Assembly (NCBI GenBank): GCA_016927425.1
Contig: JAFGMR010000081.1
Location: 1 to 43,446 of the forward strand
Origin: Methanotrichaceae archaeon
Lineage (GTDB): Archaea; Halobacteriota; Methanosarcinia; Methanotrichales; Methanotrichaceae
DNA: 43,446 nucleotides
Direction: 5' to 3'
Shown: positions 36,480-42,869 of the stretch, piece by piece
Layout: the number at the start of each line of letters is the position of its first letter
Position numbering within the stretch: position 1 is the stretch's first letter
Translations under genes and position numbers: made by a program
Notes under the pieces: model-generated
What the model saw: only the letters and a program-made list of their open reading frames with translations
Databases searched by the model: none
Told to the model about the DNA's origin: nothing

Positions 36480-36944
36480 GTGGCGGACCTGCAGCTAGAC
36501 GGCCCTCTTGCGCTTGCGTTCGCTGCAGCATTGATCCTCGGTGCAGCCATTGGGTCGATCTTCTGCTACCTGGCGGTAAAGGACAGGATGCGGCGCGAGT
36601 ACAAGCTGCTTCTTCGGGAGTGGAGGATGCAAGAGGAGAAGAGGATCAGGTCCCAGGCGCTGAATCGAAGCCGGGCTGTTCTCAAGGGCAAGATCGGCGA
36701 GCAGATGGCCCCCCTGCTGCCCGAGTTCAGGTACAACCCGGCCGACGCCCGCTTCATTGGAAGCCCTGTGGACTACGTGATCTTCGACGGCTACTCAGAG
36801 GCTCTCCAGGGGCAGGGACGGATAGAGAGGATCGTCCTTCTCGACGTCAAGACGGGCCGCGCAAAGCTCAGCCCCGTCGAGAGGAAGGTGGAAGAGGCCG
36901 TGGCCTCGGGGCGAGTGGCGTGGGAGACGCTGGAGCTTGGGTAA
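36480..36944 (+). CDS. Membrane-anchored Holliday junction resolvase-like protein
   Basis: A 154-residue protein with an N-terminal helix (about residues 8-30) followed by a charged coiled-coil region rich in Arg/Glu, and a C-terminal PD-(D/E)XK-type core: GKIGEQMAPLLPEFRYNPAD, then PVDYVIFDGYSE, and IVLLDVKTGRAKLS with Asp/Lys of the active site. The layout fits the predicted Endonuc_Holl family. The start is GTG 36480 after an AGGAGGTGATCTGAG-like ribosome stretch. It is probably co-transcribed with cfbB. Cutting DNA at the membrane is not demonstrated for the family. Confidence 0.75.
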   Translation: MADLQLDGPLALAFAAALILGAAIGSIFCYLAVKDRMRREYKLLLREWRMQEEKRIRSQALNRSRAVLKGKIGEQMAPLLPEFRYNPADARFIGSPVDYVIFDGYSEALQGQGRIERIVLLDVKTGRAKLSPVERKVEEAVASGRVAWETLELG

Positions 36945-36988: not shown

Positions 36989-37149
36989 ATCGGTCGTGAT
37001 TCTGAAATAGGTTGAAGTTTCCATAATCCGTCTGCAGCTTGCGATCTCATAAAAAGTCATTACGAGGGATTCTCTGGGAGAATCAATATCCATTGATGCC
37101 ACATTCCAAGGCAGACCCAAATTCCAACCCATAACGAATTCATGACCAT
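36989..37149 (+). mobile_element. Degenerate inverted-end element, copy 1
   Basis: The left end (36989-37018) and the reversed right end (about 37117-37149) share about 20 of 29 bases. Between copies the match is better: left ends agree at about 27 of 29 bases and right ends at 26 of 29. The interior also agrees over about 100 bases with copy 2, whose interior is longer by 120 bases. There is no transposase gene, so this is a MITE-like or eroded insertion element. It lies 86 bases before the Lrp regulator start. Confidence 0.62.
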
Positions 37150-37235
37150 CCTCCGGGCGGTCCCTCTAATCCAGCCATTTGCGAGAAGGGACCGCAAAGC
37201 CTTTAACAGCATCGAACGTTCTATTTTAGGATTCT

Positions 37236-37715
37236 ATGAGAGAGATCTTGGAGATCCTATCGGAGAACGCCAGGGCAACTCCAACGGAGATCGCAGCTCT
37301 CCTCGGCCGAGAGGTCGAGGATGTGGCAAGGGAGATCCGAGAGATGGAGGATTCAGGGGTCATCAGGAAGTACATCACCCTGGTGGACTGGGAGAAGGCG
37401 GATAGATCATATGTCTATGCGGTCATCGAGCTGAAGGTGGCCTTGCAGCGGAACACCGGATACGACGCTGTGGCCGAGAGGATAGCCAGGTTCTCCGATG
37501 TCGAGTCGGTGAGGCTGATCTCCGGAGATCACGACATATCGGCCACGGTTCGGGGGCGCTCCATGAAAGAGGTGGCGTTCTTCGTTGCTGAGAAGATCGC
37601 GACCCTCGAAGGGGTACAATCAACTTGCACCCACTTCATATTGAAGAGCTACAAGGAGCACGGAGTGATCTTGACGGAGAAGCCCAAGCCCAAGCGGCTG
37701 GTGGTGACCGCATGA
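37236..37715 (+). CDS. Lrp/AsnC family transcriptional regulator
   Basis: A 159-residue regulator. Residues ~5-50 form the winged helix with TPTEIAALLGREVEDVAREI and MEDSGVIRKY; the C-terminal part is the RAM ligand/oligomer domain with RLISGDHDISATVRGRSMKE. It overlaps the aminotransferase gene by four bases (ATGA), so it probably controls that gene and perhaps itself in response to an amino acid. A TATA-like TTCTATTTTAGG lies about 27 bases before the ATG. Confidence 0.9.
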   Translation: MREILEILSENARATPTEIAALLGREVEDVAREIREMEDSGVIRKYITLVDWEKADRSYVYAVIELKVALQRNTGYDAVAERIARFSDVESVRLISGDHDISATVRGRSMKEVAFFVAEKIATLEGVQSTCTHFILKSYKEHGVILTEKPKPKRLVVTA

Positions 37716-38911
37716 AGATGCGGATGAAGGAGATCTCGGCGCTTCGACCGGAGGCAAAGGTCGCAAGAAAGGTAAGGGCCATGCCACCCTCCGGCATCAG
37801 GAAGTTCTTCGATATGGTGAACGAGATGGACGAGGCAATCTCCCTAGGTGTGGGCGAGCCCGACTTCGTCACCCCTTGGCACATCCGCGAGGCCTGCATA
37901 TACTCCCTTGAAGAGGGGTACACCTCCTATACGTCCAACAAGGGCATGCCCGATCTGAGGGAGACGATCGCGGATCACGCCAAGGGCTGGCTGGGCCTGG
38001 ATTACGACTCTGAGGAGGAGATCCTCGTGACGACCGGGGTGAGCGAGGCTGTGGACCTGGCATTCCGGGCCATTTTGGATCCCGGAGACGAGGTTGTAGT
38101 TCCAGAGCCCTGCTATGTGGCCTACGTCCCCGACATAATGATGGCAGGCGGCGTGGCAAGTACGGTCTCAACCGACTCCTCCAACCAGTTTAAGCTCACG
38201 CCAGAGGCCATAGAGTGCGCAATCACAGATAGGACGAAGGCCCTCCTGCTCAGCTACCCGAACAACCCGACCGGCGCCATAATGACGAGGGGCGATCTGG
38301 AGGAGATCGCCGACGTGGTGGTGGAAAACGACCTGCTCGTCGTCTCCGATGAGGTCTACGACAAGCTGACCTACTCGGAAAAGCATACCAGCCTCGCCCA
38401 ACTCGATGGAATGCAAGAGAGGGTGATCGTGCTAAACGGCCTCTCCAAGTCGCATGCCATGACGGGATGGAGGATCGGCTATGTGCTCGGAGACCCGGCG
38501 CTTGTCGCGGCGATGACGAAGATCCATCAATATACGATGCTCTGCGCCCCAACTATGGCACAGATGGCGGCAGTTGAGGCCTTGAGTAGGGGAGATGAGG
38601 AGATGCTCAAGATGAGGCACGAGTACGACCTGCGTCGCAGGCTCTTCGTCTCCGGGCTCAATCGCATCGGCCTCACATGCTTCGAGCCGAAGGGGGCTTT
38701 CTATGCATTTCCCTCAGTAGAGGGAACGGGGATGACCTCAGCCGAGTTCTCCGAGATGCTGCTCAATGAGCAGAAGGTGGCAGTCGTTCCCGGAGATGTC
38801 TTCGGCCCAAGCGGCGAGGGCTTCCTGCGCTGCTCCTACGCAACCTCCCGGGAGGAGCTGATCGAGGCGTTGGACCGCATGGAGACATTTTTGTCCAAGC
38901 GAGGCCTCTAG
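37712..38911 (+). CDS. PLP-dependent aminotransferase (class I/II, AspB-like)
   Basis: A 399-residue fold-type I aminotransferase. SYPNNPTG (181-188), DEVYDKL (213-219) and LSKSHAMTGWRIG, where Lys246 binds PLP and Arg254 its phosphate, are all present; an arginine in FLRCSYATS near 378 binds the substrate carboxylate. Aspartate or aromatic amino acids are the most usual substrates in archaeal relatives. The ATG at 37712 overlaps the Lrp stop; the open frame upstream lies within the Lrp gene. It is followed by the CDP-alcohol transferase after 24 bases. Confidence 0.92.
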   Translation: MKMRMKEISALRPEAKVARKVRAMPPSGIRKFFDMVNEMDEAISLGVGEPDFVTPWHIREACIYSLEEGYTSYTSNKGMPDLRETIADHAKGWLGLDYDSEEEILVTTGVSEAVDLAFRAILDPGDEVVVPEPCYVAYVPDIMMAGGVASTVSTDSSNQFKLTPEAIECAITDRTKALLLSYPNNPTGAIMTRGDLEEIADVVVENDLLVVSDEVYDKLTYSEKHTSLAQLDGMQERVIVLNGLSKSHAMTGWRIGYVLGDPALVAAMTKIHQYTMLCAPTMAQMAAVEALSRGDEEMLKMRHEYDLRRRLFVSGLNRIGLTCFEPKGAFYAFPSVEGTGMTSAEFSEMLLNEQKVAVVPGDVFGPSGEGFLRCSYATSREELIEALDRMETFLSKRGL

Positions 38912-38935
38912 GCTCGAGGGCCAAACAGGGCGTAG

Positions 38936-39547
38936 ATGCTCAGATCATACCTCATTCGGGCTGGCAGCACCGACAAGGTGCTGAGGCCCTTCTCCCGCTT
39001 AGGCCTCTCCCCCAACTGCTGGACCGTCCTCGCCCTGGCATTCGCGTTCATTGGGGCAGCAGCGTTAGCTGCACATCAGCTTGCACAAGGTCTTGTGCTG
39101 TTCCTCCTATCCGGATTCCTCGATATGGTCGACGGGGCCGTTGCCCGCGAGCGCAACCTCAGCAGCGCCCGCGGAGCTTTTCTGGATGGAGTCCTGGACC
39201 GCTATGTGGAGCTTCTCCTCTTCCTGGGGCTGATGGCCTATCTTGGGGAGGGTGCATCCTATCTCTCGATTAGCGCGGTGTACTGGATCCTCCTTCTGAC
39301 ATTCGGGGCGCTGATGACGAGCTTCGTTAGAGCCTATGCCGACCACCGTGGCCTGGTCAAAGATCCGGAGGAGCTTCGCCGGATGGGCGGCCTCCTGGAG
39401 AGGGCGGAGCGTCTCTTGCTTCTATACATCGGAATGGCCCTCGGGCTCTTTCGCCCCGATTGGCTGCTCGTGATGATCGCCCTTACAGCCCTCCTCTCAA
39501 ACGCAACCACCCTTCAGCGAATGGCATATGCCCTGTCTAAGGGATAG
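38936..39547 (+). CDS. CDP-alcohol phosphatidyltransferase (probable archaetidylinositol-phosphate synthase)
   Basis: A 203-residue membrane enzyme with five or six hydrophobic helices. D63-x2-D66-G67-x2-A70-R71-x8-G80-x3-D84-x3-D88 is the exact CDP-alcohol transferase motif. In archaea such enzymes condense CDP-archaeol with inositol phosphate, glycerol phosphate or serine; the short length fits archaetidylinositol-phosphate synthase. The substrate is inferred. It ends the three-gene block between the two inverted-end elements. Confidence 0.86.
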   Translation: MLRSYLIRAGSTDKVLRPFSRLGLSPNCWTVLALAFAFIGAAALAAHQLAQGLVLFLLSGFLDMVDGAVARERNLSSARGAFLDGVLDRYVELLLFLGLMAYLGEGASYLSISAVYWILLLTFGALMTSFVRAYADHRGLVKDPEELRRMGGLLERAERLLLLYIGMALGLFRPDWLLVMIALTALLSNATTLQRMAYALSKG

Positions 39548-39633
39548 GCCCATGGGCAGCATTCAAGGGAGTTATTAGTATATATTATGTATTTTGATTA
39601 TTTAATTAATATATTTAATTAGATAAAGCGCCT

Positions 39634-39825
39634 GTGTCTGCAAAAGTGGAAGGATATGATTTCGCCCTAAAACATAATGTTGATCGTGATTCTGAAATAG
39701 GTTGGAGTTTCTATAACCCGCCTACAGCTCGCAGCCTCATGAAAGATCATCATGAGGAATTCTCGGGGACAATCGATATTCGGCCATGGGTGCGGGCAAT
39801 TGAAAGGAATCGCAAGAATCAGTAG
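39634..39825 (+). CDS. Small open frame inside element copy 2
   Basis: A 63-codon frame from GTG 39634 with no ribosome site. The peptide is hydrophilic, with RDSEIGWSFYNPPTARSLM followed by His/Glu- and Arg/Asn-rich residues. The same frame in copy 1 reads RDSEIG then a stop (TGA in place of TGG), and continues SFHNPSAACDLI, so the similarity is at the amino-acid as well as the DNA level. This could mean a decayed protein gene rather than a pure inverted-repeat element. No family recognised. Confidence 0.35.
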   Translation: MSAKVEGYDFALKHNVDRDSEIGWSFYNPPTARSLMKDHHEEFSGTIDIRPWVRAIERNRKNQ

Positions 39826-39965
39826 CCTGCTGTCAATTTTCGCCAAAATCCTCGCAAGGTCAATCGCTAGCGTTTTTCAGTAACTCACACACACGACCCG
39901 ATATTCGATGATTCCGTATTCCAAAACGGACACAAATTCCAATCCATAACGGATTCACGACCGAT
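39679..39965 (+). mobile_element. Degenerate inverted-end element, copy 2
   Basis: The left end (39679-39715) and the reversed right end (39925-39965) match at about 21 of 29 bases. The element is in the same orientation as copy 1, about 2.7 kb away, and its interior is longer by roughly 125 bases. It lies in a 526-base gap that is otherwise AT-rich (TATTTAATTAATATATTTAA near 39600). It ends about 110 bases before the NosD-like gene. Confidence 0.62.
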
Positions 39966-40012
39966 GTATATCGGTCCTAGGCACGCAGGCCTAAAGCAGA
40001 GGTGAAGGAAAG

Positions 40013-40067
40013 TATATATATAACATTGTAATAATGATTACTACATTAGTCTAAATAATAGGAGTGA
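40013..40067 (+). promoter_or_regulatory. Promoter, small palindrome and ribosome site of the NosD-like gene
   Basis: TATATATA at 40013-40020 is a strong TATA candidate. GTAAT...ATTAC (40028-40041) is a short inverted repeat that would lie at the transcript start and could bind a regulator. AGGAGTGAG (40060-40068) is the ribosome site, six bases before ATG 40074. Confidence 0.55.
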
Positions 40068-41884: not shown

Positions 41885-42298
41885 TTGTGGATAGTCGAGA
41901 ATGGCAGGTTCAGATGGACCGACGCGAAGTTGGTCTGGGACTGGGACGGCTGCAACTTTAGCCTAGCGCGACTAGCCAAAAATGGGCTTTGCGCGGTCGT
42001 CAGGAGCAGTGCTAGCAAGGTCAGCCATTTCATGGGAGGAAGGGCGGTTGACCTGAGGTATATGATCGGCTTCAATGTCCGAGAGGTAACCCCACCCCAA
42101 GCAGAGCTATACTCTGCCTGGACTAATCCCCACCAGTCCAAGGAGCAGTCGGGTCTTATGGAGATGTTCTTTCTCAAGCGGGATGGCGACCGCTGGATTT
42201 GGCAGTGGGCCGAGGGCGAGATAGAAGACTCTGAGGTATATCGAACATACAGGAGAATAATCCAGGAGATTGAGAGGCCCCCCCCTTGCGACCGATGA
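41885..42298 (+). CDS. Uncharacterised protein, N-terminal part of a frameshifted gene
   Basis: An open frame of about 137 codons from TTG 41885. The peptide, for example LWIVENGRFRWTDAKLVWDW and MFFLKRDGDRWIWQWAEGEI, is Trp-rich and looks genuinely coding. The frame is open upstream to 41807 but has no ATG or GTG. TATAAATTTTT (41802-41812) is a candidate TATA box. The frame ends at TGA just after CCCCCCCC (42278-42285); removing one C joins it to the next frame without a gap. No known domain. Confidence 0.55.
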   Translation: MWIVENGRFRWTDAKLVWDWDGCNFSLARLAKNGLCAVVRSSASKVSHFMGGRAVDLRYMIGFNVREVTPPQAELYSAWTNPHQSKEQSGLMEMFFLKRDGDRWIWQWAEGEIEDSEVYRTYRRIIQEIERPPPCDR

Positions 42299-42869
42299 AT
42301 CGTTCGAGGCCCCGGATCTCGACCACAATGAGAAAGGAAAGATCATCCCCGTGATCTACCAGCCTGCGGTCGATGCTTTGTACAATTTTCTTCGGGAGGG
42401 CCACAGTGCCCCATCCACTGGCGGCGGGATCGAGGTGATATTAATATTCAATAACGAGGATCTTCGTCGCCACTCAATGGGCAGTGTGCTCAACCCAATC
42501 TACGAGGCATTCCGATGGCTCCGATACGGAAGGGTCTTGGACGTGGAAACCTTCCGAATCTACATAGACCGCGGAGGTGAGTTCATATTTGAGGAGATCT
42601 GCAGCAACGGCCATGGCCTCTACGAAGACGATATCCACGGTGATCCGCCTATCGCGCCTCGAAGAGTTATCAAGCACTTCTTCGCCAATGCCATGCATCC
42701 CGTGGTATTTGTCAACACATCCAACCACGCAATGGCGGAATATGACTCTAACCATTGCCTATGGAAGTGGGAGTACATTCCCGGAACCATGGGCTGTCCA
42801 GTAAAGCTGGGGCAAAAGAGCCGAGAGGAGATCGAGAGGTCATTTCGACCCTTGTTTAGGTTCTGGTGA
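42270..42869 (+). pseudogene. Uncharacterised protein, C-terminal part of the frameshifted gene
   Basis: This frame has no ATG for over 60 codons and its only near-start is TTG 42270, which overlaps the end of the previous frame. Joined across the C8 run it would form a protein of about 327 residues (counted from TTG 41885), with VILIFNNEDLRRHSMGSVLN, then IYIDRGGEFIFEEI and ANAMHPVVFVNTSNHAMAEY. The long uninterrupted sequence and lack of a start make a single split gene the best reading. It could be a real frameshift, a switching tract or a sequencing error. Function unknown. Confidence 0.55.

Follow-up and report, generated by a model that had tools for sequence, protein, structure and literature searches.

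Archaeal MITEs measure 90-570 bp and occur in several to dozens of copies, sometimes with direct repeats (PMC3852290, Table 4), and they commonly have only their inverted repeats in common with the autonomous partner (PMC3852290). An IS1595-linked MITE of Haloquadratum walsbyi, for example, is 165 bp long, with 25-bp inverted repeats and 8-bp direct repeats (PMC3852290). None of the 18 archaeal MITEs in Table 4 of that paper is assigned to IS1, and Methanotrichaceae are not among the hosts. The family that we describe here from a Methanotrichaceae archaeon lies within this size and copy range and likewise has its ends alone in common with an IS partner, but it differs from the tabulated MITEs in both its probable IS1-type partner and its host. 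It also resembles Correia elements and other bacterial MITEs (PMC10969869) in being short, dispersed, intergenic, and often upstream of genes. Our search of the literature, which was incomplete and is not proof of absence, found no IS1-linked archaeal MITEs. The mobile DNA of Methanotrichaceae has been little studied, and the family extends it by an IS1-linked MITE group that has moved recently and includes a nested case.

The window, i.e., the whole stretch of DNA that was analysed, is 43,446 nucleotides long (contig JAFGMR010000081.1 of GCA_016927425.1, positions 1-43,446, forward strand), and the assembly searched (G000) comprises 2.32 Mb in 94 contigs. The initial annotation had reported two related copies with inverted ends in this window; both were recovered there, with refined ends at most 3 bp away from the earlier ones (Table 1). 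Very probably, these copies, A and B, are MITEs with archaeal IS1-family ends that an IS1-type transposase moved in trans and that flank ancestral genes. The base counts originally given for the ends were reproduced as well, at 27 of 29 positions between the two left ends, 26 of 29 between the two right ends, and about 20 of 29 between a left and an inverted right end (checked in copy A). Both copies belong to type I, which is 156 bp long here and has GGTCGTGA... terminal inverted repeats. When compared by BLAST within the window, A and B align over 96 bp at 81% identity (E 5e-22) and over 62 bp at 79% (E 5e-10); overall identity is 79%, and the longest stretch without a mismatch is 21 bp. The nearest kin of A is a copy on contig C48 (96% identity), and that of B, with its nested element taken out, is a copy on contig C76 (94%). 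No target duplication is visible in the flanks at the outer ends of either copy; therefore, we infer the insertion of A and B themselves from the family, and both are presumably older than the recent copies.

Table 1. Features of the locus, in window coordinates, and the IS1-family element of a relative, in the coordinates of its own locus.
Feature	Position	Strand	Remark
MITE copy A, type I, 156 bp	36992..37147	+	BLAST, end pattern, flank reading
Terminal inverted repeats of copy A	36992-37020 and 37119-37147		Copy A itself without remaining target duplication
Probable BRE/TATA of the Lrp gene (CGCAAAGCCTTTAA)	37193..37206	+	45 bp outside MITE A
Lrp/AsnC-family regulator	37236..37715	+	PF01037, 2.9e-15; flanking gene, outside the element
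Class I/II aminotransferase	37712..38911	+	PF00155, 3.2e-75; flanking gene, outside the element
CDP-alcohol phosphatidyltransferase (lipid synthase)	38936..39547	+	PF01066, 5.3e-15; flanking gene, outside the element
MITE copy B, type I, 281 bp including nested element	39682..39962	+	BLAST, end pattern
Terminal inverted repeats of copy B	39682-39710 and 39934-39962		No recognisable target duplication at the outer ends
Left 8-bp target duplication of nested element (CGATATTC)	39774..39781	.
Nested second element, type III, 117 bp (GGCCATGGGTG...CACACGACC)	39782..39898	.	Inside copy B
Right 8-bp target duplication of nested element (CGATATTC)	39899..39906	.
TATA-like stretch (AAAGTATATATATAA), upstream of 543-aa gene (40074)	40009..40023	+	Sequence read directly in window
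Full IS1-family element, 1173 bp, in relative G015	L124:2074-3246		Same ends as the MITEs; duplication CACGAATG, 8/8

The nesting in copy B had been overlooked by the initial annotation. B is longer than A because of this nesting only, as its 125 extra bp consist of a 117-bp type III element and an 8-bp duplication, and in silico excision of the element together with one duplication leaves B at exactly 156 bp, equal to A. The two duplications that enclose the element are a perfect match (8/8), and separate copies of the same element occur at several other genome sites. On contig C69, another type I copy contains a nested type III element, here with a 7/8 duplication. Copy B was thus in place before it was struck by the second MITE, which left the perfect CGATATTC duplication behind; the order of any other events proposed here is deduced. 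In a relative of another genus, a type I-like right part (L071; G020:C43:18450-18500) lies beside a GGTTGTGA...CACTCACGACC segment, roughly at the internal site that the nested element of C69 occupies (GGAATTTGG), and this is possibly another nested case.

To describe the family as a whole, copies were collected by BLAST against the genome's own assembly (E<=10), which returned 49 matches to B and 26 to A, most of them strong, and by an end pattern, GGTCGTGANNYNNNNNTNGGTTGGARTTT, with at most 2 mismatches allowed. The pattern matched 36 times in this genome and not once when reversed as a control; with the BLAST matches, this puts the recurrence far outside what chance would give. Across the family, it was present in 24 of 50 Methanotrichaceae genomes (0 in controls) and, at the same threshold, in 5 of 11 genera in a tally over well-assembled genomes; the exact left-end pattern had no match in a contig scan of genomes, which possibly did not include the home genome. 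Thus, the further copies and the joint recurrence of both ends that the MITE-like family proposed in the initial annotation should show were both found. Three types of short, non-coding, dispersed elements with inverted ends that recur from copy to copy can be distinguished: type I; type II, of about 331-340 bp, with the left end of type I; and type III, of about 117 bp, with GGYCRTG ends. The interiors of two type II copies (L062:1551-1881 and L058:2057-2398) contain inverted repeats rich in CACAAAG (ACCACAAAGGAACAAAG...CTTTGTGTCTTTGTGG), which may represent an additional repeat family within the element.

Many of these copies have retained target-site duplications of 8-9 bp. Exact 8-bp duplications flank type I copies on contig C25 of this genome and at G015a, G010, L202, and L207 in relatives, and a type I copy of a relative (G015b) has a 9-bp duplication; a 331-bp type II copy on contig C90 shows 8/8. 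Near-identical type II copies of ~340 bp are located at contig ends, and all five left ends found could be paired with a right end by their 8-bp flanks (C91-C30, C26-C71, and C25-C2 at 8/8; C35-C1 and C72-C19 at 7/8), with a chance expectation of 0.015 pairs at >=7/8. The right contig ends at C3, C75, and C94 are unpaired. Therefore, these elements moved recently in this lineage. The same near-identical copies account for many of the contig breaks in the assembly, and their duplications indicate which contigs join.

IS1 elements have GGTnATG ends, which the GGTCGTGA start of the ends described here resembles, and the 8-9 bp duplications are as for IS1. A full IS1-family element with the same ends as the MITEs was found in relative G015, which is assembled as one 3,008,626-bp chromosome (Table 1). 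It has two ORFs that overlap in the -1 frame, and within the overlap lies AAAAAAC (A6C), a slip site known for IS1. The top Pfam match of the second ORF is PF03400 (DDE_Tnp_IS1), with 38.2 bits against a gathering score of 24.1, and the fused transposase reaches 86.9 bits against the NCBIfam IS1 model (NF033558). Because this is just short of the cut-off of 100, we regard it as a divergent IS1 transposase. The MITE ends of relatives agree with the ends of this element in up to 90% of positions across 30 bp (E 8e-8), and MITE left ends match those of the G015 and own-genome IS1 at 20-22 of 29 positions. Among the IS1 transposases of Methanotrichaceae, those that share more than about 55% identity with that of G015 mostly have this end at the 3' terminus, whereas more distant ones (about 32% identity) are without it.

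In the genome itself, no complete IS1 element was readable, only fragments at contig ends, where the assembly breaks at repeats, and the first IS1 ORF was looked for there and not found. Two in-frame transposase fragments run off contig ends, one on C45 (46% identical, with GGTCGTGATTCTCTAACTAG... alongside) and one on C17 (51% identical); both are most naturally read as parts of a multi-copy IS1 that was presumably dropped by the assembly. If the partner is correctly assigned, these two breaks would be expected to hold entire IS1 elements bounded by GGTCGTGATTCTCTAAC...-type ends. Full-length IS1 copies with duplications were likewise not readable in other relatives, being broken at contig ends or diverged. 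Of what the initial annotation had proposed to search for, more copies and target duplications were found in this genome, and a full IS1-family element in G015.

The lack of an assembled partner leaves room for another IS family that generates 8-bp duplications, such as IS1595, which is linked to the H. walsbyi MITE, an element similar to the type I family in length, inverted repeats, and 8-bp duplications (PMC3852290). However, the G015 transposase scores only 30.4 bits to IS1595, its best Pfam domain is that of IS1, and the end sequence co-occurs with close IS1 transposases, so that we consider a partner of this other kind improbable. Given the target duplications, the G015 element with the same ends, and the own-genome fragments, we conclude that A and B are MITEs and that an IS1-type transposase most likely moved them in trans. 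In the proposed mechanism, such a transposase, presumably that of the genome's own IS1, would bind the GGTCGTGA...GGTTGGA(A/G)TTT ends in trans and paste the element into mostly intergenic sites, with 8-9 bp being duplicated.

A and B differ from IS1 itself in having no transposase, and their match to the 1173-bp element is terminal (~30 bp). Outside the ends, nothing in the type I interior matched the G015 IS1; therefore, only shared ends are claimed, and an origin of the interior from IS1 by deletion was considered and rejected. Across genera, type I copies are mostly 154-159 bp long, with interior segments that can be recognised as similar in some copies and not in others. Such a near-constant length and weak conservation of the interior, seen in three or more Methanotrichaceae genera, could mean that type I is not a recent deletion derivative but has been anciently maintained, with selection on the interior (e.g., for a host function or for the geometry of the transpososome); we regard this reading as unlikely. 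The inverted ends would also be able to fold, as in a structured or regulatory RNA. Such an RNA in place of a transposon is extremely unlikely, as there was no Rfam match up to E=1, the consensus fold pairs the terminal repeats only, with no compensatory changes in 14 sequences, and the target duplications and nesting demonstrate transposition.

The three genes between A and B are, by their conserved order, ancestral neighbours: the order Lrp-aminotransferase-CDP-alcohol transferase is found at every one of the 13 Methanotrichaceae loci whose length allows it to be seen, and the Lrp-aminotransferase pair also occurs at 8 loci outside the Methanotrichaceae. As A and B have the same orientation and lie 2.7 kb apart, they might instead be direct repeats at the borders of a block that is mobile or prone to recombination, and the initial annotation had proposed that they could delete or duplicate it. 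Several observations speak against this reading, which we hold to be very improbable: (i) the genes are adjacent at all of these loci; (ii) A and B represent different subfamilies, each closer to a copy on another contig than to the other, and share no identical run beyond 21 bp; and (iii) with 12-30 copies, a same-orientation pair this close arises in about 8-40% of random placements. The block is single-copy in this genome at the searched similarity, no deletion or duplication of it was seen, and the 8-mers flanking A and B, compared by eye, gave no match of the kind expected for hybrid flanks after a recombination exchange. Because of their limited similarity and separate subfamilies, A and B are best seen as independent insertions and poor substrates for recombination. 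On the preferred reading, IS1-mobilised MITEs would have landed in an ancestral Lrp, aminotransferase, and lipid-synthase neighbourhood, and their flanking of it would be happenstance.

The right ends of A and B lie 88 and 111 bp ahead of gene starts. Together with the MITE-borne promoters known in bacteria (PMC10969869), this could suggest that copies are kept as promoters or regulatory cassettes, with right ends driving or tuning the downstream genes, in line with the earlier proposal that the family seeded promoters. Among scorable copies of this genome (codon-based caller), the right end points to a gene start in 7 of 8 cases and the left end in 2 of 8. In relatives, however, the bias is absent (10 of 16 right ends versus 9 of 17 left ends); therefore, although suggestive here, an orientation bias is not claimed. 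On rough ORF calls, a general bias had seemed to hold for 13 of 15 right ends, and it was likewise discarded when it vanished in relatives. No clear archaeal TATA box was found in the MITE right end. The probable Lrp promoter lies outside A, and its motif (GCAAAGCCTATAAT) recurs with small changes upstream of Lrp in the Methanotrichaceae relatives displayed, which have no MITE there; therefore, element A did not create this promoter. The TATA-like stretch downstream of B is similarly outside the element, by 46 bp. Unlike the Correia elements, then, the MITEs here yielded no promoter of their own, and A sits outside an existing one, which makes a cassette role quite improbable and leaves promoter seeding without support. 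The block of genes and, at a minimum, the promoter of Lrp are older than the insertions of the IS1-type MITEs. Elsewhere in the window, two small adjacent ORFs of 137 and 199 aa (41885-42869) are without a Pfam match, and upstream of A (36480-36944) lies a membrane-anchored-looking endonuclease akin to archaeal Holliday junction resolvase (PF10107, 1.4e-41).
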